In this document: one piece after another, positions 1 to 50,481 of the stretch
Numbering within the stretch: the first letter of the stretch is position 1
How the letters are laid out: each line of letters opens with the position of its first letter
From: Macrocystis pyrifera
Lineage: Eukaryota; Sar; Phaeophyceae; Laminariales; Laminariaceae
Length of the DNA stretch: 64,000 bases
NCBI GenBank assembly: GCA_031763025.1
Contig: JASSKH010000006.1
Coordinates: 14,163,479-14,227,478 of the forward strand
Reading direction: 5' to 3'
Notes under the pieces: generated by a model
The model's database searches: none
The model's input: only the letters and a program-made list of their open reading frames with translations
Told to the model about the DNA's origin: nothing
Program-made: the position numbers and the translations under genes

Positions 1-230
1 CCGGGTTCTGCGAGAATGTGGCAAAACTACCAGCAAGGACGGCGTCTTCCCGAACACGGTCCCAGATAGCGCAGTCGAAGTTGTGCACGCCTCGACCGAG
101 GCGTTTGCGCTCGCGTGAGTCTGGCGAGGCCATAATCCACTCCGCTGGGGCGTCGTCCTGCAAAAGGTGAGCATTTTCAGTCATCATATACAGCTCCGTG
201 CAGGAATATGACACATCGTCAATGACAAAA
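1..230 (-). pseudogene. EL-A NADAR domain, cut by window edge
   Basis: The minus strand matches the first half of the NADAR domain of EL-C, including the segment rich in Ala, Glu and Met at the start of the domain. Only the amino-terminal side is in the window. It is part of a decayed retroelement and is assigned by similarity to 31730-31990. Confidence 0.6.
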
Positions 231-1767
231 GACGAGGGGGAACACTGCGAAAAATAAGAGGGGGGCTGCCAGAACAGTACCACCCGCTCCGTTGTATGCT
301 CGAGAGTAGGGTCAAAGACCGACGGTGCCGAGCCGTCGGTGACCGCGGCGTGTGGGGTGGGGGGGTGCTTCTCTGAGAACACTGAGCCCTTGGTGTACGA
401 GACGAGTCCGTTTCCACGTTTACTGGCTCTGTGTCGCCATTGCTCGTAGGCAAAAAATCGCCAGAAGGTTCTCTTGCTGCGCCCGATGATCTCTGTCCTG
501 GACCAAAGGGAGCAGGGGGTTCTGAGCCCGTTCTGCTTGACGAGAGCTGTGATTCTTCCGAATTTAACGGGTATGCTGTCCGGTAGATCTAGCCGGAGGC
601 CGTGGAGTCACCACTGGTTCGACGGACAGTGCCAGGTTTTTCCTGTTCCACTGGAGCCGAAGGAGCGCTGAGCACGTGGAGTGGCGTGCGCGAAGAACAA
701 AGAGGGCTTGCAGACCCTGTAGACGTCTTCAAGAACGATGCTCAGGTGGGGGGCAACAAAGTGTCTACCGGAGAGGGCTTCCGTCCTGTAGACCTGGTGG
801 GGAAGGGGTACGAGGTAGCTAATCTTGTCGACTCCTCCTTGATAGGAAAAAGGGTGGAGCGGCCACCGTTATTGCGAGGAAACGCCGAGTCGAGCTTCAA
901 CCGAGATCTTGGGGTTCGGTGTTTGCCTTCCCGCACCTCAAACCGACCGCCACCGCATGGCCGGGAGGTGTAGGAGGGGGACACCCTCGCTGAAAAAAAA
1001 CCGAACGACGCGACGGCGCGACACTCGTCGTGTTGCGCGGTGCGTGGTTCGGGAGAGTGGCGTTTGTCGTGCCTGCTCTCTTGCTCAGGCTGAGGAGAGG
1101 GGCGTTTGAGGCGCGGGCTCCCGACGTCGGGGAAGGCACCCGGGCGCTCCCCGGAGAAAGCAGTGGAACTGGGTCGCTGCGTCGGTCCGAAGAACCGAGT
1201 AACGCACGGGGCGGGAGCGGAGTAGGTCGACACTGAGTGCTGAGCGAGCCTGGGACGCCAGCATCTTGTGAAATCAATGTTTTTTCTCCCGACAATGCTG
1301 GCGGCGGGCGGGCAGGAGGAGCCGAACCGCTGTCGACCTGTCAGTTGCCGGCGCGGAAGGTGCCTGGCTGGCGTCCATTCCCGAGATATGCGAGGCACCG
1401 TAGCGAACCCCCGAGACGGGAGCCGGGACGGAAGAGGTAGGGGCGGTTGAACCACCACCGTGATGACGGGAGTGGGACTGCTGGTGTCCTCGTGCCGCGT
1501 GTGTGTTGTAGCCGTCACCTTGCCTGTTTTGCTGACCCTGGCCGTGATGTTGCCCACGCGAGTGGCCGGGGCGACGCCTGTGTTTCTTGTGGTTGTGTTT
1601 GTTCGGTCATGAATTGTTCTCGCGGCGGTGTCTGATCATGCGTTCTTGCCAACGACGGAACGCCTCGACGTCGTCGCCGAGCGTTCCGAGGTGGGGGTTT
1701 AAGATACCACTAAGGTTTAGAAAAAGGTGTCAACACTGTCGGAGAGAGTGTGTGTCTTCGTGGTAGT

Positions 1768-6382: not shown

Positions 6383-6386
6383 CTTA

Positions 6387-6852
6387 TGTGATACGGAGCC
6401 CGTCTCTAGGGTAGTGGTAAGGGTAGTGGCAAGGGACGCAGGTTGTTCTGGCAGCTGGAAAGCAGTGCTTCGCTTCTTCTGATTTAGATCTTCTGATTGA
6501 TGGCGAGAGCTGAGGAGGTGCTCTGGTAGAGAAGTGAGAGGTAGGGGGGCGGGACTCGACGCCCAGATATACTCGTCCCACCCCACGCCACAAACTCTCC
6601 TAAATTCCTCTTATCTGATGTACTCCAACAGAACTTTCCTAATGGCTACCGATCGTTCTTCTGCTAATATAAGAACTTCTCACTTCGTAGTCCTATCTGC
6701 ATCACGGAACATTCCTAAAATAACGATACTCTCGACTAACGGAATATCCGCCGGGTTAATCCATTCTTTGGATTATTCTCGTATTCGTGGAACTACAAAA
6801 CTGCAACGTATTATCTATATCTATAGCCCATGAATACTCTACTCATATCACA
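6387..6852 (-). repeat. EL-B 3' LTR
   Basis: This 466-bp repeat is essentially identical to 19646-20111 (one difference noticed, in the CTGCTAA-AT stretch). It starts TGTGATACGGAGCC and ends CTCATATCACA, with 7-bp inverted termini. It is unrelated to the EL-A/EL-C LTR. Confidence 0.95.
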
Positions 6853-8435
6853 TTAGCCCACCCTGAATAGTCGTATATGCAGACCACAAGATGGTCGGAG
6901 GGTGATGACAAAGTTCATCCCGAACGGCCAGAAAAAGGTGGTCGAAGATGCGGCTATTCGAAACAAAAGAAATGAGGCTATAGATCCCCCCACACCTCGT
7001 AATAAAACCCAAATACTACGAAGAGGGGGTGTTCGCTGCGAACAACGACGGAAAGGGAGACTACAGGAGAGAGACACAGAACTCGTAGCAGAGGCGAAGG
7101 GAAAAATCACCCAAAATGAAAACAAATAAAGACGAACGCAAAATGAGGCAGAAACCGAAAGCGAAGGCCGAAGAAGAAAACGAAGACCCAAATGAAGGCA
7201 AAAGAAGGACGTACAAGCGTTTCACTGGAGCCATTGTCTGGGGCCCAAGGAAGTACGAAAGGGTTGTTCACTGAACCGGGTTGGCGAACGAGGAAACTCT
7301 AAAAAGGAGACAGCGGTCACAATTCAAAAACATATATAGATATATATCCGCTAGGCCCCATGCCTTGTCTTGTGGCGAAGGTCCTAACACGGTAGTCATC
7401 ATGCGAGACAGAAGGGACACAGCTAGAGTGCTATGAGGGCTGCGTGTACTAGGGACTGCTAAAACCGAGAGACGCAACAAACAACGCGGCGTCTCGGAGA
7501 CCTGTCCGTGGTGTGAACAAAACCAGCAAACGTAGCAAGGTAGCCAACTCAACAAAAACAAACTCAAAGACGGTGGCGGCAAGAAAATCGCAAGAAAATC
7601 CGCAAGAAAATCGGCCTAATGCGTGCAGTTCGAAGTTGTAGATAGTGCGGGGCCCAAAAACTAGCGTGTGCAACTCGGTCAACCGGGGCGACATTAAACG
7701 TGGTGTCGTTTGCCAGAGGACAGAGGGGGTGTGCGGGATACCGGACAAGAAAGAAAGAAGAAGAAAAGGGAAAGAGAAAACGAAATACCATCGGGACCAG
7801 AAAACAGACAAAAAGCTGGACACAGGTCAGGAGAGATCGATCGTGTCCGAACCGCATATGTATGGCCGATAACTCAGCGGCCTTCCGGGGCGGCAATGCT
7901 ATCGGGACCCTACTTGTCAAACATGGAAGAAACACGGGTGAGCTGGAAGCTCGATATAGTCTTAGCTCGAGGACCGTCTGAAACACGGGTCGGCGGAAGT
8001 CGACTAAGGTCAGAGCACAGCTCAGGCTACAACACGATTTTACCTCGGCGTGATATCGCCGATAATTGGCTGTAGGCTAGTGGAGTACAAACACAAATGC
8101 AAATGAAGGTATCGCTACGAGTCAGTGGCCTGAACGTAAGGAGGTTACACGGAGCCGTAGGCGATAAGAAGAAAAACAAACGGGGGGGGGGGGGGGGGGG
8201 GGGGGGGACGATGATACTCCCAAACACACCCAAAAAAAAGAAAAACATACACGGCCTCGGATCGGTAGCCAACACGGGGTCGGTCAAGCGATACCGGTGG
8301 CGGTAGATGGAAACAAACACTCCCAAGAAGATGACTGCTGATGACTATTGAAGACTAACCCTGAAGAACTACCCTTAAGATATTGTAGACTAACCAGAAC
8401 CAAATACCCAGAACTAACAAAAGACTAAACTAAGG
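6853..8435. other. EL-B 3' non-coding region with 26-bp G tract
   Basis: No convincing protein is encoded between the integrase stop and the 3' LTR. The block next to the LTR (6853-6957) resembles the same position in EL-C (25003-25100) and EL-D (59480-59583). It shares the GTATATGCAG motif and GAAGATGCGGCT. A run of 26 consecutive G lies at about 8182-8207. The rest is purine-rich (A/G) sequence. Confidence 0.6.
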
Positions 8436-9929
8436 CTAACCAGGGGGGGGAGTGGAAACGGTGGGGGTTCCGCGGGACACATCAGAGTTCCGCAGCACCC
8501 CACGTGCTAGGCTCCCATTCCCATGGCGTTGAAGACACCACGATCCGTATACGGCGTTCCGTGCTGTAGTGTAGCGGGCGGGTTGGAGGTCGATCTTGAT
8601 CGGGCCGGGGTCGTCCAGGAACCGGACGATGTAGGGGTTTCCCGGTGAAGACTCCGGCGGAGTTCCCGAAGAGGCGTCAGGGGGTGAGCCGTGGGCGACC
8701 TTGCCCAGCCACCAAAGGCCGTCGCGCGCCTTGTACCATATGTGTGCTCCGGAGGGTAGGATGGTGGTGCTGAAGTTGTGGAGCCAAAGGCTGCGGGAGA
8801 CCAAGGCGTAGCCTGGGGCGAGGAAGATTTGTCCCTGAGATCGGGCCAGTTCGCGGTGAGCGGCGCCGATGCGCATCTGGCGGTAGAGGCGGTTCGTCTG
8901 GCGGTGCTGGGTTGGTGATCGTGACCAGTAAAGTAGGATGTGGCGCCGGAAGTGTTGAAGGTCCAGCTCGCGTTCCCACGAGGGGCTGAGAAGTCCAGTC
9001 CAGTGAGTCTCGTACAGAACGGCGATGACCCCGCCGCGGCCGCGTACGAGTTGATGGCCAGTGATCTGCTCGACCTCGAGGCGTTCCGGTGGAGGAGTGA
9101 CGTCGTCGACGGTGACGTGGTAAGGGGGGGACTTGGCGGCAGAAGCTGTGAGCACGTATGCAGTAAGGTCCGCGGGCAGATGCTTGGGGATGTCGCTGGT
9201 GTCGTCGGGGTTCCGGCAAGGTTTGCATCGTTGGACGGAGACGCGTGGCTTGGAGTCCCGTCCCGGAAGGTCCGATGGAAGGTCGAGGAAAAGTAGTTTG
9301 TCGTGAAGGGGGCGATTGTCGGGGGTGTTTGAGGCGGGCGTCGGCCCTACGGCAAGGACCTTGAAGGGGCCATTCCAGTTCAGGGAAAGCTTCGCCTTGA
9401 GGACGGTTGCGTCGGTGCCCTTTTTGACGCCTTGGCGGATGGTTGAGGCGGAGTTGTAGACCCAAACCCAGCCGCCTACGGTGAAGGGGGGGGATGCTAG
9501 GAGGGCGGCCATGATGGGCGCATTGCGGCGCTGAAGACGCGAGACGGTGAGTCGGTGTAGTTCGCGGACGAGGGAATAGGCGCGTCGTTGTCGGTCGGTG
9601 GCGAGGTTGATGTAAACCAGGTGATCGCGGTCCAGGCTTTGGTGACCACCGATATTGTCGGGTTCGAAGACCGAGAGCGGGAGGCGAGGAAGGTGGCCCA
9701 TGTGGATTTCGTTAGGTGCAAGCCCTGTGGCGGCGTTCACGGAATTGTTGTAGGCCGACGACACGTGTGGGAGCAGCACGTCCCCAGTCGGTCTGCTGTT
9801 CGTTGCCAACCATAGAGAGCATTTGGGCCAGTACGTGGTTGACGCGCTCGACGCCGCCGTTGGTGCAGGGGTGGTAGGAGCTGGTGTTGACCTTGTGGAT
9901 GCCAAGGCGTTCGTAGACGATGTTCGCAA
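8436..9929 (-). CDS. EL-B integrase C-terminus with chromodomain and Tudor-like domain
   Basis: This 497-residue open segment is the distal part of the integrase polyprotein. Residues 57-140 continue the integrase core tail (AYNNSVNAATGLAPNE). Residues 152-195 form the GPY/F-type barrel (LNWNGPFKVLAVG). Residues 284-335 are chromodomain-like: LEVEQITGHQ, then YETHWTGLLSPSWERE, then DLQHFRRHILLYW. Residues 392-465 form a second small barrel with HIWYKARDGLWWLGK followed by YIVRFLDDPGPIK, resembling Tudor/Agenet folds. In chromoviruses the chromodomain helps direct integration to marked chromatin. The Tudor-like add-on is my inference from residue pattern. A near neighbour segment (9712-10626) supplies the catalytic core. 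Confidence 0.85.
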   Translation of the reverse strand: MRTSSTNALASTRSTPAPTTPAPTAASSASTTYWPKCSLWLATNSRPTGDVLLPHVSSAYNNSVNAATGLAPNEIHMGHLPRLPLSVFEPDNIGGHQSLDRDHLVYINLATDRQRRAYSLVRELHRLTVSRLQRRNAPIMAALLASPPFTVGGWVWVYNSASTIRQGVKKGTDATVLKAKLSLNWNGPFKVLAVGPTPASNTPDNRPLHDKLLFLDLPSDLPGRDSKPRVSVQRCKPCRNPDDTSDIPKHLPADLTAYVLTASAAKSPPYHVTVDDVTPPPERLEVEQITGHQLVRGRGGVIAVLYETHWTGLLSPSWERELDLQHFRRHILLYWSRSPTQHRQTNRLYRQMRIGAAHRELARSQGQIFLAPGYALVSRSLWLHNFSTTILPSGAHIWYKARDGLWWLGKVAHGSPPDASSGTPPESSPGNPYIVRFLDDPGPIKIDLQPARYTTARNAVYGSWCLQRHGNGSLARGVLRNSDVSRGTPTVSTPPPG

Positions 9930-10626
9930 GCTTGGAGGTGAAGTGTAGTCCGTTGTCGGAGAGAAGTGTAACCGGGCACCCCCAGAGAGGGATGTACTCG
10001 TTCAGGAAGATGTCGGCAGTGCCGGTGGCCGTGAATTGCGCCGCTGAAACGGCATACATATCGGCGCGGCGGCTGAAGCGGTCTGTGAAGAGGAGGATGT
10101 GGACGTTCCCGCGCGGCGTGAGCGGCAGGGGCCCGAAGTAGTCGACGCTGACGGTGATGCCAGGCCCGTTGGGCAAAGGAAGAGAAAGGATGGGCCAACG
10201 AATGGTGTGCCGGGAGGTCTTCCGCGCCTGGCATTGAAGGCAACGGCGGATCCACCAGCGGACGGAAGCGTCCATGCCAATCCACCAAAAGAAACGTGCC
10301 AACATGCGGACCGTTCGGGTGACTCCCAGGTGTAGGGAGGTGGTGGCGTGGCATGTGTTCAGCACCCAAGGGCGCATTAACATTGGCACGTAGACGCGTG
10401 GGGTAGAGGGGGGGCGGGTGGTGGTAGGCTGTTCCCGGATGAGGTTGTGGGTGGTCGTTGGACCAGGAGGGCGGTTTCGTCGTCGGTACGGTGTAGCTTG
10501 CTTTTGGAGGCAAGAGTGAGGACGTCCGAAAGTTGTGGGCGCCGGGCCGGGGGGATGAAGTCCAGGAGGTCGTGCGGCGTGGGGCTGGGGGAGTCCAACG
10601 ACAGGAAGCGGATGGTGGCGCAGCAC
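9712..10626 (-). CDS. EL-B integrase, zinc-binding and catalytic core
   Basis: Integrase inserts the double-stranded cDNA copy into host DNA. The H2C2 finger is visible as CHATTSLHLG followed by CLQCQARK. The core then shows VDYFGPL, LLSDNGLHF and GGVERVNH, which place the D, D and E of the catalytic triad. This is the standard Ty3/gypsy arrangement. The segment sits upstream of the chromodomain part on the minus strand. Confidence 0.88.
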   Translation of the reverse strand: MLRHHPLPVVGLPQPHAARPPGLHPPGPAPTTFGRPHSCLQKQATPYRRRNRPPGPTTTHNLIREQPTTTRPPSTPRVYVPMLMRPWVLNTCHATTSLHLGVTRTVRMLARFFWWIGMDASVRWWIRRCLQCQARKTSRHTIRWPILSLPLPNGPGITVSVDYFGPLPLTPRGNVHILLFTDRFSRRADMYAVSAAQFTATGTADIFLNEYIPLWGCPVTLLSDNGLHFTSKLANIVYERLGIHKVNTSSYHPCTNGGVERVNHVLAQMLSMVGNEQQTDWGRAAPTRVVGLQQFRERRHRACT

Positions 10627-11201
10627 AGGGGCTCCGCGCGTTGTTCTCGCGCCCAGTCTTTGTAGGTGTAGTGCTCGACGCAGGCGAGGAGGTAGGGGTC
10701 ATCATCGGGTTCGACGACGGGCTCCGGAAGGGGCACTGACGGTGGTGTTTGTGCCGGCGGCGAGGGCGTTGTTAAAGGGGTCGGTCTTTGCGTGGTGGGC
10801 GCCGATGGCTTGGGTGGCGGTCGGCGTCCAAACCGGTAGTCGGCTGTGGGCCGAGGGGTTCCCGCGGCAGCGGCGACGCGATGGCGGGTCCGAGAAGATA
10901 TCAGACCTGAAAGGGCTGGTGTCGTGGCGCCAATGGTGGGCGGCGGAGAGACGACGGACGGCATGGAAGCCGAGCCTGGAGGAGCTCCGGTGTTCACGGC
11001 GGCATTCTCGGTGCCGGCAAGCTGTCCGGTGGTGGAGTCGCTGGTCGCAATAGGCCCGATGAAGGTGTGGGTTGCGGGGGAAAGGGTGGGGTGCTCCATA
11101 CGTGGTCCGAGTAGGCGAAAATCGCGGAAGTCGTCGTCAGTGAAGGGGAGCGGCTGGACGGTTGGGATGGGTCTGGAAGGGGGGGACACGAGCCCACCCA
11201 A
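10377..11201 (-). CDS. EL-B pol linker, Pro/Thr-rich
   Basis: This Pro/Ser/Thr-rich segment lies just before the integrase zinc finger. Near its start it carries GLGGLVSPP and FRDFRLLGPRMEH, matching the stretch that follows RNase H in EL-C. Near residue 180 it carries YTYKDWAREQRAEP, matching SHADWAREQQAEP of EL-C. It is probably an inter-domain tether of the polyprotein. It has no enzyme motif. Confidence 0.65.
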   Translation of the reverse strand: MGGLVSPPSRPIPTVQPLPFTDDDFRDFRLLGPRMEHPTLSPATHTFIGPIATSDSTTGQLAGTENAAVNTGAPPGSASMPSVVSPPPTIGATTPALSGLISSRTRHRVAAAAGTPRPTADYRFGRRPPPKPSAPTTQRPTPLTTPSPPAQTPPSVPLPEPVVEPDDDPYLLACVEHYTYKDWAREQRAEPLCCATIRFLSLDSPSPTPHDLLDFIPPARRPQLSDVLTLASKSKLHRTDDETALLVQRPPTTSSGNSLPPPAPPLPHASTCQC

Positions 11202-11544
11202 GCCGATACCCGGGGTGGAAGGGTCGTTCGGCGCGAAGCCGCAGGGGCGGATGAGGTAGATGCCGACGGTGTCGGGGCCAGTGAGGCGGTTGCGTCCGGT
11301 GCGGTCGGCGTCGGTGGCTGGTTGGGGAAGCCGGGAGAGGAAGTCGGCGTTGTCGTTGGCCGTGCCCTTCCGGTACTCCAGCGTGTAGGTGTACGCTGAA
11401 AGGAGCTCGAGCCGTTGGGCTGTCCGGGGGTACGGTGATCTTGAACGGCATGAGCGGGCACGAGCCGAAGTCAGTCTTGGTGGTGGAGAAGACGTCCTGG
11501 AATTCGCAGAGGACGTCTCCCAGGTTGTTGATCACCGACGGGGT

Positions 11545-12126
11545 TCATCTAGAACCGTGCAGGTCGAAGTTGACGTCGCGTAGGTGTAACGGCAGACGTT
11601 CCCAGAGGTCGAGGAAGCTGTCCCGTTGGTCGGTGTTGAGGCGTGCAAGGAGTTGTGGGCACGGGGCTTTTGGTGCGGTAGGAGGGTCATCTGTCGATGG
11701 GCTCTGGTCGGCCACGGGAATGTTGTCGTGGAGGGCATGTACATCCGGAATTTGAGGGGGGTGGGGAGGGGCCAAGGAAGGGTGTCCAAGGGTGGAAAGT
11801 GGTACCTGTACCAGTGGGGAGTAGGAGGTTCCGAGGAGGTCGCCCGGCTCGAGATCGGTAGATCCAGATAGGGGGACCGTTTGGCATCCGTCGGAGACGA
11901 AAATGGCCGTGTCGGAGAGTGGGTTCTCGCGGGGGAGCATGTTCACCATGCAGTTCCCGGTAAATGCTGGAGCGCCTGACTGGCGCGCCAGGTTGACCTT
12001 AACGAGCTTGGGGGTGGAGGAAAGCGATATAGCGTTGTTGCCGGCGAATCGGAGGTGGTAGACGTCGTCAGTGGAACGGTCGTCGGGAATGAATGCTGAG
12101 GCTCCGTTGGGGTCATGGTGGTTCAA
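11545..12126 (-). CDS. EL-B post-protease segment
   Basis: This 193-residue segment follows the protease part and is colinear with 30285-31070 of EL-C. The shared landmark is LEPGDLLGTSYSPL, compared with LEPGDVLGVAHAPL in EL-C. It ends in RDVNFDLHGS, which in EL-C precedes the reverse transcriptase portion. I know no domain name for it. Two element families conserve it, so it is a real polyprotein part. Confidence 0.6.
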   Translation of the reverse strand: MNHHDPNGASAFIPDDRSTDDVYHLRFAGNNAISLSSTPKLVKVNLARQSGAPAFTGNCMVNMLPRENPLSDTAIFVSDGCQTVPLSGSTDLEPGDLLGTSYSPLVQVPLSTLGHPSLAPPHPPQIPDVHALHDNIPVADQSPSTDDPPTAPKAPCPQLLARLNTDQRDSFLDLWERLPLHLRDVNFDLHGSR

Positions 12127-12133
12127 GGAGAGC

Positions 12134-13843
12134 TCACCGCGGGTTCGCCGGGGAGGTTGGTGGGGGGGGGGGGGGCTGTTGCTGGAGCGTGGTATACGAG
12201 CGTCGCTCGAAGCGCATCCAGCTGTCTCGTCCCAGAAGGATGGGGTTCTGCATGGTTCCTGCAGGAACTACGCAGGCCCATACTGCCAGGGCAGCAGTGG
12301 GGGACTGGAGGCGCATAAACTGGATGCTTAAGCGGATGGAGACGGAGGTGGAGAGGGGGGCTGAAGTGCCGAAACCTCCCCATGAACGGGGGGAACTGTG
12401 CCGTTCGCACGCATCGGTGGCTGCCTGGGAAGCCTTCAGTTGTTCCACCGCGGTTGCGGTGATAAACGACTGGGGCGAGCCGGTATCGAGCAGTGCCACG
12501 AGTTCGCGGCGCGTAGTGGCGGTGGGGCCGCTGTGCACGAGTACTTTCGTCGTGAACGACGCGTCGTCGACGGTAATGATGCCGCTTGTAAGGCATGGTC
12601 CGTGTTCCGGTATCGGCGGGCGGCGGGTAGGGAGGTGGCTGTGAGTGGCGGTGTTGATGGTGGACACTTGGGCAAAGTGGCTGCTGGGGTAGGCGTCGGG
12701 GGTAGACGGCGGTAGGAGTGGCCCAAGTGGAGAGGTAGGCGGTTGCCATGGAGGGCTCGGGCTTGTTTCGTGGATGCCGTCGGCTGTGGGGGAAACCCGG
12801 GTGGAGTCGGTGGGGGCGGGTGTTGGCTCCGGGTCGTGAAGATGGGGAGGAAATGGAGGCTGGGCGGAGCGATTGGCGCCGAGGTTTGCTCGAACGTCCA
12901 TCAGTATCCTGCCCAGCAGATTCCGACCACGCCAACGCGTCGGGTCACAGGCGTCCGGATGGTCGGCCTTGAAGCCTATGCCCCAGATGAGGTCGTGTGG
13001 GCTGGCCTCGGCGATGTGCTTGTCGCCGGTTGCTATTAGCTCCTCCCGTAGCTCCGGGTGTTGGCGGAACTTGGAGAAGTTAATGTAGAGGGCGATGGTG
13101 TAGCGGTGTCGCTCCCAGACCATTTCGTCGAAGTCGGAAACGGTTCGCCCAAGTGCTTTTTGGCGGGCTGGGTCGCGGGTCGCGTTGATGCGGCGCTCAG
13201 CTGTGATGTCCCCGAAGAGCGCGGCCTTCTGCGCCATCATCATCTGCTCAGCGCAGTTGTATGTGACGCCATCGTGTTCGATGTCGCACAGGTACCACTG
13301 CGAAAAGACCGAAGAGGAGTCCCAGAAGAAGTGGAAAGATGAGGCGGCCTCGGCGGTGACGTGTGCAGTTGATGGCGTCTTTTGTGTCGGGGGTGGGGGG
13401 GGACGATAATCTTTCCTATCGCCGCCTGGCGTCGACGGAGGTAGAGTCAGCAACGATCGAGCGGTGCTGGCCGGAACCCTCATGTTCGCGGGGGAATTGC
13501 TCGGCAAAGCCGAGGTACCGGGGCGGTCCTCGCCGGGGCTTATAAGCCGGGCGGGACGACCCTCAAGCGCCCTATCGTCCAACTTTTGGAGAACAGGGGC
13601 ATACTCGCTAGGGGATGCCACACCTGGGGTCCGTGTCCACGCTTTGCGCGAAGCAGGCGAGGAGGACGGGTCAGGGGGCTCAGGGCAGACCCTGGTCGAC
13701 GTTGGTCGCGAGTCTTCCGTATACAAAACGGGACTGTCCCTCGAGCTCAGGGACAGCGGTGGTGTCAACACCGTGGCAGCTGGAAGAAGCCCGTCGTTCG
13801 CGGGTTCAACGCTGTCACAAGGAATACGCGCATGCTGGAACAT
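12134..13843 (-). CDS. EL-B NADAR domain plus retropepsin-like protease
   Basis: This is a 569-residue open segment. Residues 1-168 are low-complexity Pro/Ser-rich. Residues 169-320 (12884-13339) are a NADAR (YbiA/DUF1768) domain. Its landmarks are FHFFWDSSSVFSQWY, then YNCAEQMMMAQKAALFGD (the family usually has SEHYFQAQK here), KFRQHPELREELIATG, HIAEASPHDLIWGIGF and NLLGRILMDVRANL. This length is normal for the family. Known NADAR proteins are N-glycosidases: bacterial YbiA acts on riboflavin-pathway intermediates, and DarG-associated NADAR removes ADP-ribose from guanine in DNA. Residues 410-545 form an aspartic protease with LLDTGSPQSFI (DTG at 453-455) and PILLGRDSW. The domain sits between gag and protease. 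Its role in the element is inferred, not shown. Confidence 0.88.
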   Translation of the reverse strand: MFQHARIPCDSVEPANDGLLPAATVLTPPLSLSSRDSPVLYTEDSRPTSTRVCPEPPDPSSSPASRKAWTRTPGVASPSEYAPVLQKLDDRALEGRPARLISPGEDRPGTSALPSNSPANMRVPASTARSLLTLPPSTPGGDRKDYRPPPPPTQKTPSTAHVTAEAASSFHFFWDSSSVFSQWYLCDIEHDGVTYNCAEQMMMAQKAALFGDITAERRINATRDPARQKALGRTVSDFDEMVWERHRYTIALYINFSKFRQHPELREELIATGDKHIAEASPHDLIWGIGFKADHPDACDPTRWRGRNLLGRILMDVRANLGANRSAQPPFPPHLHDPEPTPAPTDSTRVSPTADGIHETSPSPPWQPPTSPLGPLLPPSTPDAYPSSHFAQVSTINTATHSHLPTRRPPIPEHGPCLTSGIITVDDASFTTKVLVHSGPTATTRRELVALLDTGSPQSFITATAVEQLKASQAATDACERHSSPRSWGGFGTSAPLSTSVSIRLSIQFMRLQSPTAALAVWACVVPAGTMQNPILLGRDSWMRFERRSYTTLQQQPPPPPPTSPANPR

Positions 13844-19627: not shown

Positions 19628-19645
19628 GAATGCGACGACGTCAGA
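19628..19645 (-). other. EL-B putative primer binding site
   Basis: Inside the 5' LTR the minus strand reads tcTGACGTCGTCGCATTC. The TGACGTC start resembles the TGGCGTC of EL-A and EL-C at the same place, so a related tRNA primer is plausible. The tRNA is not identified. Confidence 0.4.
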
Positions 19646-20111
19646 TGTGATACGGAGCCCGTCTCTAGGGTAGTGGTAAGGGTAGTGGCAAGGGACGCAG
19701 GTTGTTCTGGCAGCTGGAAAGCAGTGCTTCGCTTCTTCTGATTTAGATCTTCTGATTGATGGCGAGAGCTGAGGAGGTGCTCTGGTAGAGAAGTGAGAGG
19801 TAGGGGGGCGGGACTCGACGCCCAGATATACTCGTCCCACCCCACGCCACAAACTCTCCTAAATTCCTCTTATCTGATGTACTCCAACAGAACTTTCCTA
19901 ATGGCTACCGATCGTTCTTCTGCTAACATAAGAACTTCTCACTTCGTAGTCCTATCTGCATCACGGAACATTCCTAAAATAACGATACTCTCGACTAACG
20001 GAATATCCGCCGGGTTAATCCATTCTTTGGATTATTCTCGTATTCGTGGAACTACAAAACTGCAACGTATTATCTATATCTATAGCCCATGAATACTCTA
20101 CTCATATCACA
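19646..20111 (-). repeat. EL-B 5' LTR
   Basis: This is the partner of the 3' LTR at 6387-6852, with the same length and termini. It is followed by CTTA, which repeats the bases before the other LTR. The 5' LTR should hold the element promoter, but I see no certain TATA box to place it. Confidence 0.95.
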
Positions 20112-20770
20112 CTTACTCTTGATAAAATCGAACGAGTACAAACCCGATGGCTTCGTGGCCAAAATCGGGTACCTTTCTATTTCAGTGACCGCGACGGTCC
20201 CAGGACGCCATCTCATTGGTCAACTCCGGTCACCACCCGCTGCTGGCCGCATTTTCGCCGGGTATACCGACTTTGGCTACTTACCCCCCAAGAGGTACCC
20301 GATTATTGTACCCACCTACCCGAAAATGGGCAGACTATCCGACCACAACGACCAGCTTCGTACCATCTCGGAGTCCATGCCTCTCGTTTCGACGAAGATT
20401 GGCGACAATCATCTGCGTGATGTCCATGATAATAATAGGTTCATTCCAGAGTACTATTAATATTTCATCCGCTCTCTCTTTCGCTCGCTCATTCGCTCAC
20501 TCTCTGCAGCAGTGGTGCTGTACCAACCACATACCAACCACCGCTCTCCCTCTCTCTCCTCTCCTCTCCCAGACCAAAAGTTAGCACAGCCCTCTCTCTC
20601 CCCATATCCCGAACCAAAAGCAACCTAAGCTCAGCAGTAGTAGTGACGGGGATCATGAGCGACGCCGCCAACTTCGTGACACAAAGAGCGGGCATTTCTA
20701 CATATGCAACATCTCTTTTTACTTCTAGCCACGCTGGAATTCTCATGTGTGCGTGTTTTCTTCACGTGAA

Positions 20771-24684: not shown

Positions 24685-24726
24685 GGCAAAACCCCAAAAC
24701 AAAAGGAAGACAAAGGAAGACCACGT

Positions 24727-25002
24727 TGTTAAGATCAAGCTTGCGGGAAACTTTGTATCCCTGGACAGGTCTGCCTTTAAGTCGGTAAACATTGTACTCA
24801 CATGTGGTGTTTGCTTAGCTATAGAAGAAGAGCAGTTTTGTTCCTTTCGTGCACGCGGAGACTGAGATCAAGCTCGTGCTCCTCTGGAAAACCCCTGGTT
24901 TTCCATCTAAGATACGCTTTCCAAGTACTACAAATACGTTCCCAGTGACTGAACCCAGGTAGTTACCGGGCTTTCAATCTCATACAAGACAATATCTCAA
25001 CA
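24727..25002 (-). repeat. EL-C 3' LTR
   Basis: It begins TGTTAAGATCAAG and ends AATATCTCAACA. The termini are near-inverted 9-mers (TGTTAAGAT and, in the partner, ATCTTAACA). It matches 38114-38390 with about eleven substitutions and one indel. Confidence 0.94.
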
Positions 25003-25571
25003 CTAGCCCACTCTGATGAGCCGTATATGCAGAACTATGGGAAATTCGTGGAAACCCCGATTCCACGAACTAGAACATGAGTCGAAGATGCGGCTCCTCA
25101 AAACCCACTCCCACACCTCTGAACGGCGAGGCAACGAAGCCGGCAAAGTACGTTAAAAAAAATAAAGGGAAGACTCAGCCTTAAGGGGCAGGAAGAAATC
25201 GTCGATGAAAGCCATCGCCATACCGCCCGCACGGGGGGGGGGGAGGCGAGGAAGAAGCACGGAAAAGCGGGAAGTGCGTACGGGAACGAAAAGAAAAATA
25301 ACACGGAAGACTGCAAGAACCACCTAAACCCAGTCCACAACTCTGAAAGCGCGTCCTGGGCCGTAATTGAGCGGCCGAGTGCCCAGACCAGTCCCACCAC
25401 TGGGCCGGGGGGGTAGGCAGGACAGAATGCGCAAAAACACATCCCCAACCCAGTCCAAAAAAAAGAAAACACACCAGAAACATATCGGGCAGACAAAAAT
25501 TAATCCCCCAAAGTCCAGGAAGACGACAAAAAATAAATAAATAAATAACGAGTGCAGTCAAGAAGCGAAAA
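25003..25571. other. EL-C 3' non-coding region with hairpin near the LTR
   Basis: No gene is seen. Next to the LTR, a stem of 9 bp (TTCGTGGAA, 7-base loop, TTCCACGAA) lies at about 25045-25070. The flanking GTATATGCAG and GAAGATGCGGCT recur at the same place in EL-B and EL-D. It probably holds the polypurine priming site (minus strand AGAGTGGGCTAG before the LTR). Confidence 0.6.
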
Positions 25572-25955
25572 TCAGCTATCCACGGCGGCACCTCGAGATT
25601 CATCCACGTTACGCTGGACCCCCCGTGTAAACGCGCTAGCCAAGTGAATTTGCAGACACCAAGAACCTCGTACAGCTCTCGTCGAAGTCGTGTAGCGCGC
25701 CGGAGAAAGAGGAAGCTTGATTGGTCCCGGGTCGTCTAAAAATCGAACCAGATATACTCCATCCGTCGGTGTAGTTGCGCTGATTTTCCCGAGCCACCAC
25801 AGACCGTCGTCGCCCTTTGTACCAAAAGTGGGCCCAGTTGGGAAGTACAGTGTTGCTGTATCGGCGGAGCCAATCGGCGTGCGATACGCAACCGTAGCCG
25901 GGTGCCAGAAACCGCTCGCCGCTGCTCCGAGAAAGCTCCCGTTGTGCCGCGCCAA
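25572..25955 (-). pseudogene. EL-C Tudor-like C-terminal domain
   Basis: This minus-strand segment carries the second barrel seen after the chromodomain in EL-B. It has GDDGLWWLGKISA, then VYLVRFLDDPGPIKLPLSP and then RGSWCLQIH. The same order occurs in EL-D (about 58700-58990) and EL-F (about 63000-63210). The Tudor/Agenet assignment is an inference from the aromatic and acidic pattern. The element is broken here. Confidence 0.65.
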
Positions 25956-26085
25956 TTCTCATTCGGCGATACGGGCGGTTGGTTTGGCGGTGTTGGTTCG
26001 GGGTGCCGGCCCAGTAGCGGAAAATTGCGTGGCGAGAAAGCTGAAGGTCAATTTCCCGTTCCCAGGATGGCCGGGATAATCTCTT

Positions 26086-28329
26086 TCAGTGTGTCTCGTA
26101 CATCACCGCGATGACGCCACCTCGACCCCTAACCGATTGATGTCCAGAAATCTTTTCCACTTCGAGTCGTTCAGGAGGGGTCGAAACGTCGTCCTCGGTG
26201 ACGTGGTACGGAGGGGATTTCTTGGAGAAATTGTTGAGCACGTATTGCGTCAACCCCGCCGGCAAATACTTCGGCATGTCGCCATGGTCGTGGGGGTTGG
26301 CACAGGACTTGCAGCGTTGAACAGATACGCGCCGGCGAGCCTCGGCGCCGGGCATATCGGAAGGAAGATCCAAATACAGGAGCTTTGCTCCGAGAGGAGA
26401 TCCATCCGGGGTGTCCGCTGAGGAGCAGGGGCCAACTGCGAGAACTTTGTAGGGGCCCGTCCAGTTGAGTGAGAGTTTGGCCTTGGGGACCTTGGCGTCC
26501 GTGTCTGGTTTCGCGCCCTGGCGGATGGTGGCCGCCGTATTGTACACCCACACCCAACCACCAACGTCAAATTTGGGGACCGGACGCAGAGCGTCGGAGA
26601 GGGCGGAGTTGCGGCGGTTCACGCGAGCGACAATGAGGGCGTGGTGTTCTCGAACGATGTCGTACGCGCGCTGCTGCCGGTCCGTCGCTATGTCGCAGTA
26701 GGCGAGGTGGTCGCGGGCCAAGCTCTGGTGGCCGGCGACTCCAGCACGTTCGAAGATCGTGAGTGGGAGGCGTGGCAGCCGACTCATATGTACCTCGTTG
26801 GGAGCCAGACCCATGGCGGCGCTGACGGAATTGTTGTACGCAAATTCGAGGTTTGGGAGCTGTTCATCCCAGTTGTTTTGGAGCTCGTTGACGACCATTG
26901 CCAACATCTGGGCCATCGTGGGGTTTACACGTTCCACCCCACCGTTGCCGTTTGGGTGGTAGGAGCTGGTGGCAATTTTTCGAACCCCGAGAAGCTGATA
27001 TACCGCGTGCGAAAGCTTGGAGCAGAACTGGAGGCCGTTGTCCGAGAGGATGCTGCGCGGGCACCCCCAAAGAGGGATATACCGGTTGATGAGAATGTTA
27101 GCCGTGCCCTCAGCGGTGAACTCGGCCGCTGTGACGGCGTACATGTCAGCTCGGCGGCTGAAACGATCAGTGAAAAGCAAGATGTAGGTATTACCTCGAG
27201 GCGTCACCGGGGGGGGGCCGAAATAGTTGATGCTGACGGCGATGCCGGGCCCTTCTGGCAAGGGCAACGTGATGGAGGGCCACCGGACCGTCTGCCGCGA
27301 CGTTTTCCGTGCCTGGCACTTTAAGCAGTTGCGTAGCCACCACCGGGTGCAGATGCTCATGCCGATCCACCAGTAGAAACGTTCGAGCCTACGCAGGGTG
27401 CGCGCGGTTCCTAGGTGGCAGGAAGCCGTAGAATGGCAAGCCTGCATGACCCAGGGGCGCATGAGCAGCGGAACATAAATGCGAATAGGCTCGTCGTTCA
27501 ATAAGCAGGCCGTACGACCCACCGGGCGTGGCGTATCCAATGCAGGGGGGGGAGACGGCTGTCGGACAAGTAGAACGATGCCCGCGTCAGTGGTGTGCAA
27601 GCGGCCTTTGGTGGCCAGCTCTTGAACTTCCGAAAAGGGAGGGCGCTGGTGGGAAGGGAAACCTGATAAAAAGTCGTCTGGCAAAACTTCCGGTCGGCCA
27701 AGGGCTATGTAGTGCATGGCGGCATTGCACGCGGGCTCAGCCTGTTGTTCCCGAGCCCAGTCGGCGTGCGAATAGCGCGCTGCGGAATCACCGAACTGAA
27801 ACTTGGCAGCTGCGCCGAGGGCGTCCAAGTCGGTCGAGGTGACGGGAGGTGCGTCAGTTGGCGGCGGAAGTCGTAAAAGAGGAGTTCCCACGGGCTCGGT
27901 GCGGTCGCGGCCGGACGAGATGGGTACCGTCGGGACGGACGAGGCGGCAGGAGTCGGGGCCAAAACGACGGGTGCGGGCGGTCGCGGCCGTGGGGCTCGC
28001 AGCGGGGTGGTAGCACGCCGGGCTGATGGTCTAGGGGTCCCGCCGGGCCCGAAGCCATAATCAACAGCAGGCGGCACGGTGCCAGCGGCGGCGGCTGTTC
28101 GTCGGCGCGCCCGCGATGAGATGCGGCCTGAAGACGGCAAAACGTTCGGAGGCGCCGGGTTGCCAGGCGGCGATGGGATAGACGCGGCCGGATCAGTGAT
28201 CACGGCGGAATCTTTTCCCTGTAAAGTGCTCGTCGGGGGAGGAGCACGCTGGGCGACAATCGTCGCTGCAGCGGGGGCTTCTGCAGAACCCTGGCATGAA
28301 AGGGAAGACACGGCCGGAGCAGTGCTCAC
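26086..28329 (-). CDS. EL-C integrase with GPY/F barrel and chromodomain start
   Basis: This is a 747-residue open segment. Residues 1-250 are Pro/Ala-rich linker. The H2C2 finger is at 299-340 (CHSTASCHLG, then CLKCQARK). The catalytic core is at about 365-500, with LLFTDRFSRRADMYAVTAAE, ILSDNGLQFCSKL and GGVERVNP. The tail has AYNNSVSAAMGLAPNEVHMS. The GPY/F barrel is near 589-635 (LNWTGPYKVLAVG). A CKSC-containing segment follows at 666-700. The chromodomain begins at about 718 (PPERLEVEKISGHQSVRGRG). Integrase joins the cDNA to the host chromosome, and the chromodomain is known in chromoviruses to guide it. Confidence 0.88.
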   Translation of the reverse strand: MSTAPAVSSLSCQGSAEAPAAATIVAQRAPPPTSTLQGKDSAVITDPAASIPSPPGNPAPPNVLPSSGRISSRARRRTAAAAGTVPPAVDYGFGPGGTPRPSARRATTPLRAPRPRPPAPVVLAPTPAASSVPTVPISSGRDRTEPVGTPLLRLPPPTDAPPVTSTDLDALGAAAKFQFGDSAARYSHADWAREQQAEPACNAAMHYIALGRPEVLPDDFLSGFPSHQRPPFSEVQELATKGRLHTTDAGIVLLVRQPSPPPALDTPRPVGRTACLLNDEPIRIYVPLLMRPWVMQACHSTASCHLGTARTLRRLERFYWWIGMSICTRWWLRNCLKCQARKTSRQTVRWPSITLPLPEGPGIAVSINYFGPPPVTPRGNTYILLFTDRFSRRADMYAVTAAEFTAEGTANILINRYIPLWGCPRSILSDNGLQFCSKLSHAVYQLLGVRKIATSSYHPNGNGGVERVNPTMAQMLAMVVNELQNNWDEQLPNLEFAYNNSVSAAMGLAPNEVHMSRLPRLPLTIFERAGVAGHQSLARDHLAYCDIATDRQQRAYDIVREHHALIVARVNRRNSALSDALRPVPKFDVGGWVWVYNTAATIRQGAKPDTDAKVPKAKLSLNWTGPYKVLAVGPCSSADTPDGSPLGAKLLYLDLPSDMPGAEARRRVSVQRCKSCANPHDHGDMPKYLPAGLTQYVLNNFSKKSPPYHVTEDDVSTPPERLEVEKISGHQSVRGRGGVIAVMYETH

Positions 28330-28550
28330 GACGGAATCTTCGACCTGTCAAGTGCTCGTCGGGGGAGGAGCGCGCTGGGCGACAATCATCGCTGCAGGGG
28401 ACTTCTGCAGAGCCCTGGCCTGAGAGGGAAGACGCGGCCGGAGCAGTGCTCACGACGGAATCTTCGACCTGTAACGTGCTCGTCGGGAGCGGAGTGCGCT
28501 GGGCGACAATCGTCGCTGCAGCGGGGGCTTCTGCAGAGCCCTGGTCGCCC
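28195..28550 (-). repeat. 125-bp tandem repeat in EL-C pol linker
   Basis: Three units are anchored on GCTCGTCGGG at about 28228, 28354 and 28478, with a period of about 125 bp. Each contains GCTGGGCGACAATC and GCTGCAG. EL-D has a single unit at about 56310-56400, so EL-C expanded it. It encodes Ala/Ser/Pro-rich linker. Confidence 0.8.
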
Positions 28551-30212
28551 CCGGAGGGTACGACAAAAACCGAAGCGAAAGCGGCGTTGGCGGAAGGTGA
28601 AAAATCCCCCATGGTCGACGGTGGCGACGGAGGCAGATACACGAGCGACGAATCTCCCCGAAGGAGCAGAGAGGTCGTCAGTCCTCATACGTGGCCCGTG
28701 TGTGCGAAAATGGCAAAAATCCGAAGGGGCGAGAGGTAGTCCACCCAAGACGGCACTTTCACTGGGGGACACCAGCCCACCCAAACCGACACCAGGGGTC
28801 GGCGAAGAGCGAGTGCGAAGCCCGCAGGCTCGGATGAGGAAGATACCACCGTCCTCGACAGGGTTGAGGCAGCTAGACCCACTGCGGTCGTGTTCTGTGG
28901 CGGGCTCTGGCAAGCGTGAGAGAAAGTCAGCACTTCCGTTGGCGCCGCCCTTGCGGTACTCGAGGGTGTAGTCGAACGCGGTGAGGAACTCGAGCCACCG
29001 CTGGACTCGCGCGTTGTGGTCCCCTACTTTGGCGATAGTCTCAAGTGCTTTGTGATCCGAAAATATTCGAAACTTCGTGCCGCACAGGTAACCTCGGAGT
29101 CGTTTGATAGCCCAGACAATGCTGCCAGCTTCCAGGTCCAACGGTGTCCAGTGCCTTTCGGAAGCGAGGGTAGCGTGGCTGATATAAGCAATGGGCCGTA
29201 CCGAGCCGTACGGTTGTTCTTGTTCGAGCGCGGCACCGAAACCGTCCATGCAGGCGTTGCAGTACACATGGAAGGGGCGGGAGCCGTCGACTACCGCATC
29301 CCAGTCAGGGAAGACCAAAATCGGTGGGGCCGCAAGCTCGGCGAGGATCTGGCGGACGATAACTTCCATAGCCGGCGTGAAGACATACTTGACCCCCTTC
29401 CGGAGAAGGGCGGTGAGAGGACGTATCCGTTGAGACAGGTCGGGCAGGAATTTGCGATAACATCCTACGCCGCCCATCAGGGCGCGGACCTGCTTGAGGT
29501 TCTTGGGCATGGGCATTTTCAGCAAGGCCGAAACTTTTTCCGCAATAGGGCTTATACCCGCTGGCGAAATAGAATGGCCCAGAAAATTGGCGTCCGTGGT
29601 GCCGAGGCGAGCCTTCGAGGGGGAGAGCTTGAGGTTGTGTTTGCGCAGGAGTTCGAAGAGGGCTCGTATCGTCTTGACGTGGGCCGTCGGGTCAGAGTCG
29701 AAAACGATCACATCATCAAGGTAGGCCGCCACTTGTGCCAGGCCTTTAGTGACTTCGTTAATCACTTTGACGAACCAGCCGGGCGAAGCACTGCTGCCTT
29801 GGGGCATGACGAGCCACTCGAAAAGGCCCGTGGGAGTGCAGAACGCCGTAAGAGGGACGGTATCCTTGTGCGTGGTAATCTGGTGGAACGAGGAGACTAA
29901 ATCGAAGAGGGAAAACACCCGTCCCTTCCCCAGGGAGTCGAGGACTTGGTCCACTCGAGGGATAGGCAGCTGGCTGAGTTTGCTGATCTGGTTGAGTTTT
30001 TTGTAGTTCACGGTGATCCGAACGCCTCCAGACTTCTTCGGGATGACCACCAGCGGGCTCGAGTACGGAGAAGTCGAGTGCTGGATCAGACCTGCTGTTA
30101 GGTACTGATCCAAGGTGGCCTCCACTTCCTTGGCCAGGATGGGGTTGATGCGGTGCGGCCTGGACGTGACAGGAGCGCTTCCTTCCGGGACCGAGATCAC
30201 GAAAGGCATCAA
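28386..30212 (-). CDS. EL-C reverse transcriptase and RNase H
   Basis: This is a 608-residue open segment. Reverse transcriptase is at about residues 20-265: SPYSSPLVVIPKKSGGVRI, LDSLGKGRVFSLFDLVSSFH, the FEWLVMPQGSSASPGWF box and the catalytic YLDD box at 164-167 (VAAYLDDVIVFD). The thumb and connection include LKQVRALMGGVGCYRKFLPD. RNase H lies at about 300-437: FHVYC, IAYISHATL, HWTPLDLEAGSIVWAIKRLR, FRIFSDHKALE and LEYRKGGANGSADFLSRLP. Together these copy the RNA genome into double-stranded cDNA inside the particle. Order and motifs are classic Ty3/gypsy. Confidence 0.93.
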   Translation of the reverse strand: MMPFVISVPEGSAPVTSRPHRINPILAKEVEATLDQYLTAGLIQHSTSPYSSPLVVIPKKSGGVRITVNYKKLNQISKLSQLPIPRVDQVLDSLGKGRVFSLFDLVSSFHQITTHKDTVPLTAFCTPTGLFEWLVMPQGSSASPGWFVKVINEVTKGLAQVAAYLDDVIVFDSDPTAHVKTIRALFELLRKHNLKLSPSKARLGTTDANFLGHSISPAGISPIAEKVSALLKMPMPKNLKQVRALMGGVGCYRKFLPDLSQRIRPLTALLRKGVKYVFTPAMEVIVRQILAELAAPPILVFPDWDAVVDGSRPFHVYCNACMDGFGAALEQEQPYGSVRPIAYISHATLASERHWTPLDLEAGSIVWAIKRLRGYLCGTKFRIFSDHKALETIAKVGDHNARVQRWLEFLTAFDYTLEYRKGGANGSADFLSRLPEPATEHDRSGSSCLNPVEDGGIFLIRACGLRTRSSPTPGVGLGGLVSPSESAVLGGLPLAPSDFCHFRTHGPRMRTDDLSAPSGRFVARVSASVATVDHGGFFTFRQRRFRFGFCRTLRGRPGLCRSPRCSDDCRPAHSAPDEHVTGRRFRREHCSGRVFPLRPGLCRSPLQR

Positions 30213-30284
30213 CGAGCAGGAACCAAAATCCGACTTGGACTTCGAGAAAACGTCGGGAAATTCGCTGAGAACGTCCCCCAGCTG

Positions 30285-31070
30285 TTAAATGACCGCAGGG
30301 GTCCAGCCTGTGCCGTGGAGATCAAAAGCCACCTCCCGTAGATGTATCGGCAAGCGTGCACAGACGCGCAGGAACGAAGCGCGCTGTTCTGAGGTCAAAC
30401 GCTCAAGTAGTGCAGGCGAGGGCGAGGCTGGAGCTGCGAGGGGGGGGGCAGTAACTGTTGAAACCGGACACACCTCACCTAGTCCGGAGGGAGGGCTCGG
30501 GGCTCGGTTGTCCTGCTGCAAAACGTCCAGCGGAACGCTCAGCAACGGGGCGTGGGCGACGCCGAGGACATCCCCCGGCTCGAGAGCCGCCACTCCAACG
30601 AGGGGAAGAACCTGTCGTCCGGAGGAGACGAAGTACTCCTCGACCGAGGGTAGGTCGGGCTGGGGCATCATGTCGACCAAGTAGTGTCCAGTGAGGGCCG
30701 GGGAGCCATCGCTTCAAACCAAATTAACAGCAAGCAGCCGGGGATCGTCGGACAGGGTGACGCCTGCTGCGCCCTCGTAGCGTAGATGGAAGCCTCCACC
30801 CGAAGCGACGGAGTCGAAGGCGTACACGGACATGCTTGTCGGGGCGTGGTGAACTAACTCAAGCCCGCCAAACTCGCGTTGATCAGACGGCCGAGGTGGC
30901 AGAGAACGGTAGGAGCGGCTATTAAAGAGCATCCAGCTGTCACGTCCCAATAGTACAGCATGCTGCATCACCGAGGGGGGGACCACGCAGGCCCAAACTG
31001 CGAGGGAACAAGTAGGCTCATTGTCTCGAAAATATTGGACGCTCAGGCGCACACTCGTCGGAGTCTTCAT
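30285..31070 (-). pseudogene. EL-C post-protease segment
   Basis: This is colinear with 11545-12126 of EL-B and 54097-54600 of EL-D. Landmarks are FHLRYEGAAGVTLSDDPRLL, LEPGDVLGVAHAPLLSVPLD and, near the end, LREVAFDLHGTGWTP. The beginning also holds the last strand of the protease (VLLGRDSW). The conserved part has no known domain name. Confidence 0.6.
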
Positions 31071-31094
31071 AGGGGCCGATTCGTCAAAACCCCC

Positions 31095-31990
31095 TCAAGA
31101 ACGAAGGGCGCCTTTCTGCTCGCACGCGAGGGATGCCGCACCAACCGAGTGCATGCGATCCAAAACATCTCGTCGGATGAAAGTCTGCGGGGAGCCAGTG
31201 TCAAGAAGCGCCACGCAACCAAAAGGTGCAAGAACGCCAGCTCCGCTGTGAATCGCGATTTTGGTTGTAAAAGAGGCGTCATCGAGGGTAATGGTGCCCC
31301 CGACGAGGCAGGGGCCGTGTTCTGGCAGCGCGAGGGAGGGGTCGACGCTAGGTGTGACAGCCAAAATCTCGGGGCTGTGATCAGCCGGCGCGTCAGAAAA
31401 ATAGGTCGAAAACTCCAAAGGAGGACCTGGGCAAGCGCGGGCCACGACCAAAGGGCGGGCCGGCGCTGGTGTAATCTCATGAATTCTGTCAGGTCTGGTT
31501 GGGGTGCAGAATTGATGAGAGGAGGCGGGGTGTGCCAGCCCGGCCTCACTTGACCGGAGGGTGTCGCGAACGGCGGAAAGAGCTTTACCAAGCAAATTTT
31601 TTCCATGCCACCGAGAGGGATCGTGAGCTTGGGGGTCGTCTGCCCGCAGACCGATGCCCCAAACGGCATCAAAAGGGCTGGCTTCAGCCAACATTTTGGT
31701 GCCAGTGCTCAATAGGTGCTGCTTCATGACCGGGTTCTGTGAGAATTTGGCAAAATTACCAGCAAGGACGGCGTCTTCCCGAACACGGTCCCAGATAGCG
31801 CAGTCGAAGTTATGCACGCCTCGACCGAGGCGTTTGTGCTCGCGTGGGTCTGGCGAGGCCATAATCCGCTCCGCTGTGCCGTGGTCCTGGAAAAGGCGAG
31901 CCTTTTCAGCCATCATATACTGCTCCGCGCAGGAATATGATACATCGTCGACGACAAACGACCAGGGGGACCACTGCGAAAAATAAGAGG
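31095..31990 (-). pseudogene. EL-C NADAR domain and protease
   Basis: The NADAR domain spans about 31540-31990. It shows AEKARLFQDH, the long KFSQNPVMKQHLLSTGTKML stretch, AEASPFDAVWGIGLRADDP and NLLGKALSAVRDTL, all landmarks of the YbiA-like family. It is followed by a Pro-rich link and then the retropepsin region with ALLDTGSPQTFIRRDVL (DTG near 31210). The order NADAR then protease is the same as in EL-B, although the LTRs of the two elements are unrelated. Known family activities are N-glycosidase on flavin intermediates and on ADP-ribosylated guanine. Function in a retroelement is unproven. Confidence 0.82.
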
Positions 31991-33420: not shown

Positions 33421-33437
33421 AACATACCACTATGGTT

Positions 33438-38000: not shown

Positions 38001-38096
38001 GCAGTGGCCGGAACAAACTTACTCAACAACAACAGGAAAGCAAACAAACAAAAACAGTGACAAACAACGCAAACCGACAAAAAAGCGGAAAGTCCT

Positions 38097-50447: not shown

Positions 50448-50481
50448 CTCTAGAGTTTTTCAACGCTGGCAACCTAGGCTC

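Follow-up and report, generated by a model that had tools for sequence, protein, structure and literature searches.

A NADAR domain of the YbiA subfamily in the Pol polyprotein of Ty3/Gypsy retrotransposons of the giant kelp Macrocystis pyrifera

A 64,000-nucleotide stretch of the genome of the giant kelp Macrocystis pyrifera (assembly GCA_031763025.1, contig JASSKH010000006.1, positions 14,163,479 to 14,227,478; hereafter the window) contains a long terminal repeat (LTR) retrotransposon, element B, and we confirm that a NADAR/YbiA fold is genuinely part of its Ty3/Gypsy polyprotein. The fusion is already known, as a Gypsy lineage whose Pol begins with a YbiA-family NADAR has been published for Ectocarpus (Genome Biology 2025, PMC12477816), and the kelp element is a further case of it. 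No other report of a NADAR-Gypsy fusion was found among the titles and abstract starts of the matches listed. The kelp adds a second NADAR clade (B) beside an Ectocarpus-like one (C), a subfamily lacking reverse transcriptase (RT), and a genome in which no DarT-type transferase was found. No earlier report of clade B or of the RT-less subfamily was found in a literature search that fell short of most subscription papers.

The NADAR of element B lies in a 569-amino acid open reading frame (ORF; Table 1) that matches PF08719 with 163.4 bits against a Pfam cut-off of 35.1 (E=7.1e-48) over profile positions 1-162 of 163. The protease begins 264 nt past the NADAR and shares its frame, bearing out an earlier note made from the letters of the window alone, which had read a complete NADAR in one frame with a retropepsin DTG; the note placed the domain at 12884..13339, correctly as to location and less so as to its exact ends, which we measured at 12881-13330. 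The protease itself matches Pfam weakly in this ORF (Asp_protease_2, E=0.073, under the cut-off); LLDTGSPQ and its flanking sequence are kept in relatives whose frame continues into RT. The best NCBIfam model for the NADAR is TIGR02464, riboflavin biosynthesis intermediates N-glycosidase, with E=6e-43 for element B and E=2e-44 for the NADAR of a further window element, C. Solved chains with a sequence match to the window protein are the Phytophthora nicotianae NADAR 8BAU (E=3e-17) and the E. coli YbiA 2B3W (E=1e-7). An AlphaFold2 model built on an 18-row alignment gave per-residue confidence (pLDDT) values of 78-95 for the NADAR part (65-70 in its first 20 residues) and mostly below 70 for the remainder, the protease half being of low confidence. 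With this predicted structure, 8BAU (4e-11) and 2B3W (4e-8) were the sole PDB fold matches below E 0.001, in agreement with the YbiA-like fold that the note had proposed. Phage NADARs match the window NADAR as well (694 records; 44-50% identity among the 20 matches listed). An Rfam search gave no matches above the gathering score.

Four residues of the ADP-ribose pocket are retained. In the ADP-ribose-bound structure 8BAU, the distal ribose is coordinated by E43 and E125, and D130 touches the ligand; hydrolysis by the E. coli C7 NADAR requires the equivalents of K50 and E125, while at the equivalent of E43 a change to alanine was milder in vitro than a change to glutamine (PMC11543638). Aligned to the 8BAU sequence with a single constant offset, the window protein has E199 for E43, K206 for K50, E279 for E125 and D284 for D130, so by alignment all four pocket residues are in place; the note had named a kept catalytic pocket, along with a strong profile match, as support for its claim. 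Element-borne NADARs (35 database proteins and two from the window, counted per alignment row covering the column) keep E199 in 29/29, K206 in 33/33, E279 in 33/34 and D284 in 35/35, and the four positions rank in the top 8-12% of 153 alignment columns by conservation. The last strand of NADARs carries a glutamate in the YbiA subfamily, an aspartate in the BC4488/DarT1-linked group and a histidine in phage gp30.3 (PMC11125620). The window NADAR is assigned to the YbiA subfamily because it has a glutamate at 279, within EASPHD and equivalent to E125 of 8BAU.

The arrangement recurs throughout the kelp genome. Six-frame profile searches of 537,376,219 bases in 223 contigs, in which intron-split genes could be missed, returned 1264 NADAR candidates; all 150 that were scored lay above the cut-off (24/150 rows with one stop), and the same search matched 3 of 14 control genomes. 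From the kelp genome we took 20 loci (L160-L179) and 20 stretches (L180-L199), picked by NADAR score and frame length, a sample that is biased to intact NADARs and uninformative about elements without NADAR. The 42 window and genome pieces examined represent 28 distinct NADAR sequences, which keep E199 in 28/28, K206 in 27/28, E279 in 27/27 and D284 in 27/27. Every one of the 28 has a protease downstream of the NADAR, 20 of them within the same ORF. For 22 of the sequences 7.3 kb or more was available: 15 of these have an RT spanning at least 335 of 430 model positions, 7 have RT deleted, and an integrase was found in 19. Loci L191 and L192, one for each family, each contain one uninterrupted frame in which NADAR, RVT_1 and RNaseH all match above cut-off. 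The note had proposed a count of LTR elements with NADAR between gag and protease; in the kelp the place before the protease recurs in 28/28 sequences. The fusion, of which the note had left open whether it was already reported, is not new.

Database proteins show the same order. Of 186 proteins fetched, 35 have NADAR ahead of protease and/or RT and none has it behind them; the 35 comprise 21 with NADAR-protease, 6 with NADAR-protease-RT and 8 with NADAR-RT. Eight of the 35 are named Ectocarpus, and in all eight NADAR stands before RT, with a protease recognised in one. The RT of element C has 386 relatives, and among the 120 matches listed all 22 with an organism name are from Ectocarpus sp. 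CCAP 1310/34; its RT ORF shares 70% identity across 74% of its length with the best-scoring Ectocarpus protein. In a protease-based scan of viral contigs, none of the 47 matched stretches encoded a relative of the elements. Other database proteins join NADAR to PF10021, PF13671 or the macrodomain PF01661 (P0032, P0034, P0038-P0040).

Element B is a recent insertion because its LTRs are 99.6% identical across 471 columns, and the note's description of it as young holds. Its termini are TG...CA with a 4-bp direct repeat, CTTA (read by eye), giving it the LTRs and target duplication of a Ty3/Gypsy element. Along the minus strand the element runs from a gag-position ORF through NADAR-protease and the beginning of RT to integrase, with a weak chromodomain-like stretch after it. 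The gag-position ORF has no Pfam match, and in the note's placement of NADAR between gag and protease gag is identified by position only. The window copy is nevertheless defective, because most of RT is gone, integrase homology is divided between two frames, and the NADAR frame is shortened to 579 amino acids from stop to stop versus 873-1124 in six sister copies. Past the chromodomain-like stretch, the frame continues into a tryptophan-rich stretch unnamed by Pfam (C-terminal end of the ORF at 8442-10001, minus strand). A Tudor domain is reported for another Ectocarpus Gypsy family (PMC12477816).

The loss of RT is not peculiar to the window copy. Relative to locus L191, a shift of 1,175 bp occurs at the same place in the window copy, L193, L195, L197, L198 and L199, and one of 1,174 bp in L196, with junction letters alike in all seven (window position 11389, minus strand). 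Because the shift and the junction letters are common to seven copies, the comparison indicates a single deletion that has spread to at least seven places and defines an RT-less subfamily of B. The deletion takes out the greater part of RT and a portion of RNaseH but spares NADAR-protease and integrase, so that a B subfamily without RT still keeps NADAR. Other members of family B have kept RT, and RT-less copies are presumably mobilised by RT from other elements. Simple GT..AG splicing was rejected as an explanation of the missing RT, as no such pair lies within 6 bases of the breakpoints.

In this sample, which leans to intact NADARs, and by comparison of ratios with no formal test, NADAR is no less constrained than its neighbours. 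Across 153 pairs of 18 relatives, mean identity is 58% for NADAR, 58% for protease and 36% for the linker between them, NADAR exceeding the linker in 153/153 pairs and protease in 66/153. The pooled ratio of nonsynonymous to synonymous differences (pN/pS) in family C is 0.37 for NADAR (17 copies), 0.40 for RT (13), 0.32 for integrase (9) and 0.48 for protease (11); in family B it is 0.60 for NADAR (10 copies), 0.57 for protease (10) and 0.56 for integrase (9). The RT-less B copies alone give 0.41 for NADAR and 0.75 for protease (7 copies, few differences). Between window elements C and D, the ratio of nonsynonymous to synonymous substitution rates (dN/dS) is 0.30 for NADAR and 0.26 for RT. The pair A and D, for which no frame was fixed, is left out of this comparison.

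The origin of the domain was addressed with a 95-row NADAR tree. It takes in every third of the viral loci (27 of 80) and of the bacterial loci (27 of 79), together with 17 of 37 element NADARs and with 24 of 38 NADAR proteins lacking recognised element domains, three of the last being fragments close to B; the remaining sequences were omitted as too short or to limit computing time. The outgroup loci came from scans of viral contigs (490 NADAR stretches, 80 kept) and genome contigs (at least 577, 79 kept). Clade B comprises window B, P0003, P0007 and the three fragments (98/83, bootstrap not settled), and clade C comprises 14 rows including the Ectocarpus proteins P0095, P0112, P0138 and P0151 (100/95, bootstrap not settled). 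Clade C NADARs adjoin myxobacterial NADARs (92/79), and P0030, a NADAR with WD40 repeats (PF00400), also groups with a myxobacterial NADAR (100/92). For the 95-row tree, an approximately unbiased (AU) test does not reject a single clade of all 20 element NADARs (p-AU 0.229). In separate trees of 20 elements B stands apart from the rest for both NADAR (97/96) and protease (75/92). One capture with fast change, a later swap and two captures are all possible histories of these sequences.

Among known systems, the Ectocarpus NADAR Gypsy lineage (e.g., Gypsy-12_Ec32) is the closest, four Ectocarpus-named proteins sharing the NADAR clade of window C. It differs from the window in host and in the lack of RT in element B, the curated Ectocarpus elements being known here by description; four of the eight Ectocarpus-named NADARs were put in the tree and none falls in clade B. 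The P. nicotianae NADAR resembles that of the window in its last-strand glutamate, pocket residues and fold, and differs in having been studied as an isolated chain of 189 residues. E. coli YbiA has the same fold and domain family in a free-standing protein, with a weaker match. The myxobacterial NADAR/YbiA proteins (Nannocystis and others), the nearest cellular group to clade C with moderate support, are products of bacterial genes. Crassostrea gigas offers another case of NADAR in a retrotransposon, in ORF1 of a Tx1 long interspersed nuclear element, where the domains are reported to be divergent (PMC12477816).

What the NADAR does in the element is a separate question, and we tentatively favour, at somewhat less than an even chance for the account as a whole, the removal of guanine ADP-ribose inside the particle by a NADAR carried in Pol. 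Starting from what is directly supported (domain, fold, pocket, position, recurrence, RT- and integrase-like constraint in the sample, and recent insertion), we infer packaging, cleavage, catalysis and substrate. The YbiA-subfamily NADAR stands first in Pol, ahead of protease, RT/RNaseH and integrase; it would probably be made within Gag-Pol, packaged into the particle and freed by the protease. Once released, it may work in the particle as an N-glycosyl (ADP-ribosyl) hydrolase whose most likely task is to strip ADP-ribose from guanine of the element's RNA or complementary DNA, which would keep reverse transcription and integration unblocked. Guanine is the favoured target because every NADAR/YbiA protein tested in PMC11125620 acts on guanine-ADP-ribose, and removal of ADP-ribose from guanine is likewise described for the NADARs tested in PMC11543638. 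The role of NADARs in eukaryotes is open (PMC11125620). The role proposed in the note, an answer to host ADP-ribosylation, is plausible. A hydrolase kept in the replication machinery of an abundant retrotransposon offers a testable link between ADP-ribosylation and eukaryotic retroelement control, and the kelp genome, with at least 150 scored copies and, among the copies examined, two NADAR clades and an RT-less subfamily, makes constraint and dependence measurable.

Several observations weigh against this account. The six-frame search of the whole kelp genome, window included, gave no match to DarT (PF14487), a search that matched 1 of 14 control genomes; PARP gave one partial match (0/14 controls) and the macrodomain three (8/14 controls). 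No obvious nucleic-acid ADP-ribosyltransferase was thus found in the kelp genome, where intron-split genes could be missed, and the window NADAR is not paired with a DarT gene as DarT-linked NADAR antitoxins are. NADARs outside DarT1 contexts poorly counter DarT1 toxicity although they are active in the tube (PMC11125620), and, given the TIGR02464 match, the substrate could instead be a flavin intermediate. NADARs without recognised element domains keep the pocket equally well (E199 34/34, K206 34/36, E279 34/35, D284 33/35); its conservation, as judged from the alignment, is hence the sign of a kept enzyme and not of a special role. The evidence for constraint has its own weaknesses, as the copies for pN/pS were those with the highest NADAR scores, a choice biased to intact domains, and pairs are non-independent; the ratio in close pairs that include the window copy varies widely, between 0.21 and 2.02, with few differences to count; and the NADAR of C versus that of element A has a dN/dS of 0.97 over 89 codons, a ratio near 1 that reflects either decay after insertion or no selection. 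The three macrodomain matches and the single partial PARP match lie at G000:C194:8207467-8214076, C119:2244-2636 and C205:1515473-1515619.

E. coli YbiA hydrolyses reactive riboflavin-pathway intermediates. A comparable metabolite repair by the kelp NADAR, acting on such intermediates or on free ADP-ribose-like compounds to the benefit of element or host, would fit TIGR02464 as the top NCBIfam model; we consider it quite unlikely, because it gives no reason for an enzyme fixed in Pol ahead of the protease, and the tested NADAR/YbiA proteins were all active on guanine-ADP-ribose (PMC11125620). The Ectocarpus authors, reasoning from analogy with RNA-virus NADARs, suggested RNA processing, in which NADAR would act on the RNA intermediate of transposition (PMC12477816). 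A viral fold search with the predicted structure does return RNA-virus polyproteins (e.g., Gill-associated virus, Ingleside virus), and the present data do not separate RNA processing from removal of guanine ADP-ribose. No RNA activity measured for a YbiA-subfamily NADAR is known to us, which counts against RNA processing, and on balance we hold it to be unlikely.

Reader domains, chromodomains and Tudor domains among them, occur in other Gypsy elements (PMC12477816), and the NADAR could by comparison be an ADP-ribose-binding or structural module for which catalysis is not needed. This is a distinctly doubtful option given that K206 and E279 are kept, residues whose C7 equivalents are required for hydrolysis (PMC11543638). 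Most improbable of all is a neutral passenger, or a product of chance or assembly. Some copies are decayed (window A and D) and C versus A is without constraint, as a passenger would be; against it stand the same position in all 28 own-genome and window sequences, NADAR before RT in eight Ectocarpus-named proteins together with the published Ectocarpus fusion, and NADAR constraint comparable to that of RT and integrase. Chance and assembly artefact in particular are rejected on the PF08719 match, the fold match and the protease downstream in 28/28 sequences. An extension of ADP-ribose removal in the particle, and a long shot, is that NADAR was acquired twice (or swapped) at the same Pol site, from a myxobacterial-like source in clade C and a different one in clade B, the repeated demand pointing to an undiscovered ADP-ribosylating host defence that is undone inside the particle. 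If true, such a defence would ADP-ribosylate retroelement nucleic acid or protein.

Searching the window by tblastn with five relatives revealed NADAR sequence in four elements, A, B, C and D (Table 1). The Pol order of protease, RT, RNaseH and integrase is found in element C and loci L191 and L192, and in element B without most of RT. The integrase ORF of element C gave no Pfam match at E<=0.1 to a chromodomain after the integrase, where the Ectocarpus NADAR Gypsy lineage has a putative one. In element D, identical 196-bp direct repeats (50253-50448 and 53339-53534) flank the stretch between NADAR and protease, and this interruption is probably a nested, young LTR-type insertion.

Table 1. 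Features of the NADAR-bearing elements, in window coordinates
Feature	Position	Strand	Remarks
Element B, 5' LTR	19645..20115	minus	99.6% identical to 6386-6855
Element B, gag-position ORF, 340 amino acids	14396..15418	minus	No Pfam match; gag by position only
Element B, ORF with N-terminal region, NADAR, linker and aspartic protease	12134..13843	minus	569 amino acids
Element B, NADAR domain, residues 172-321	12881..13330	minus	PF08719 E=7.1e-48; TIGR02464 E=6e-43; pocket residues E199, K206, E279, D284
Element B, retropepsin-like protease region with LLDTGSPQ	12239..12616	minus	Conserved in relatives; Pfam alone weak, E=0.073
Element B, spacer and RT start	11389..12141	minus	Thereafter RT largely and RNaseH partly missing (~1.17 kb versus locus L191)
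Element B, integrase, first part	9718..10698	minus	H2C2 zinc finger E=1e-16; rve E=1e-6 (under curated cut-off)
Element B, integrase, later part in other frame, then chromodomain-like stretch	8442..10001	minus	Pfam Chromo E=0.12, under cut-off
Element B, 3' LTR	6386..6855	minus	Pairs with 19645-20115
Element C, second NADAR family	24716..38390	minus	LTR-like repeats 24716-25002 / 38102-38390, 94.8% identical
Element C, NADAR and protease start in one open frame	31098..32039	minus	PF08719 E=2.7e-51
Element C, RT and RNaseH	28389..30212	minus	RVT_1 E=3e-27; RNaseH E=3e-28
Element C, integrase	26089..28329	minus	H2C2 E=1e-12; rve E=6.5e-6, under cut-off
Element A, NADAR piece truncated by window start	2..358	minus	tblastn
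Element D, decayed NADAR	49561..50062	plus	Protease and RT homology resume at 53536
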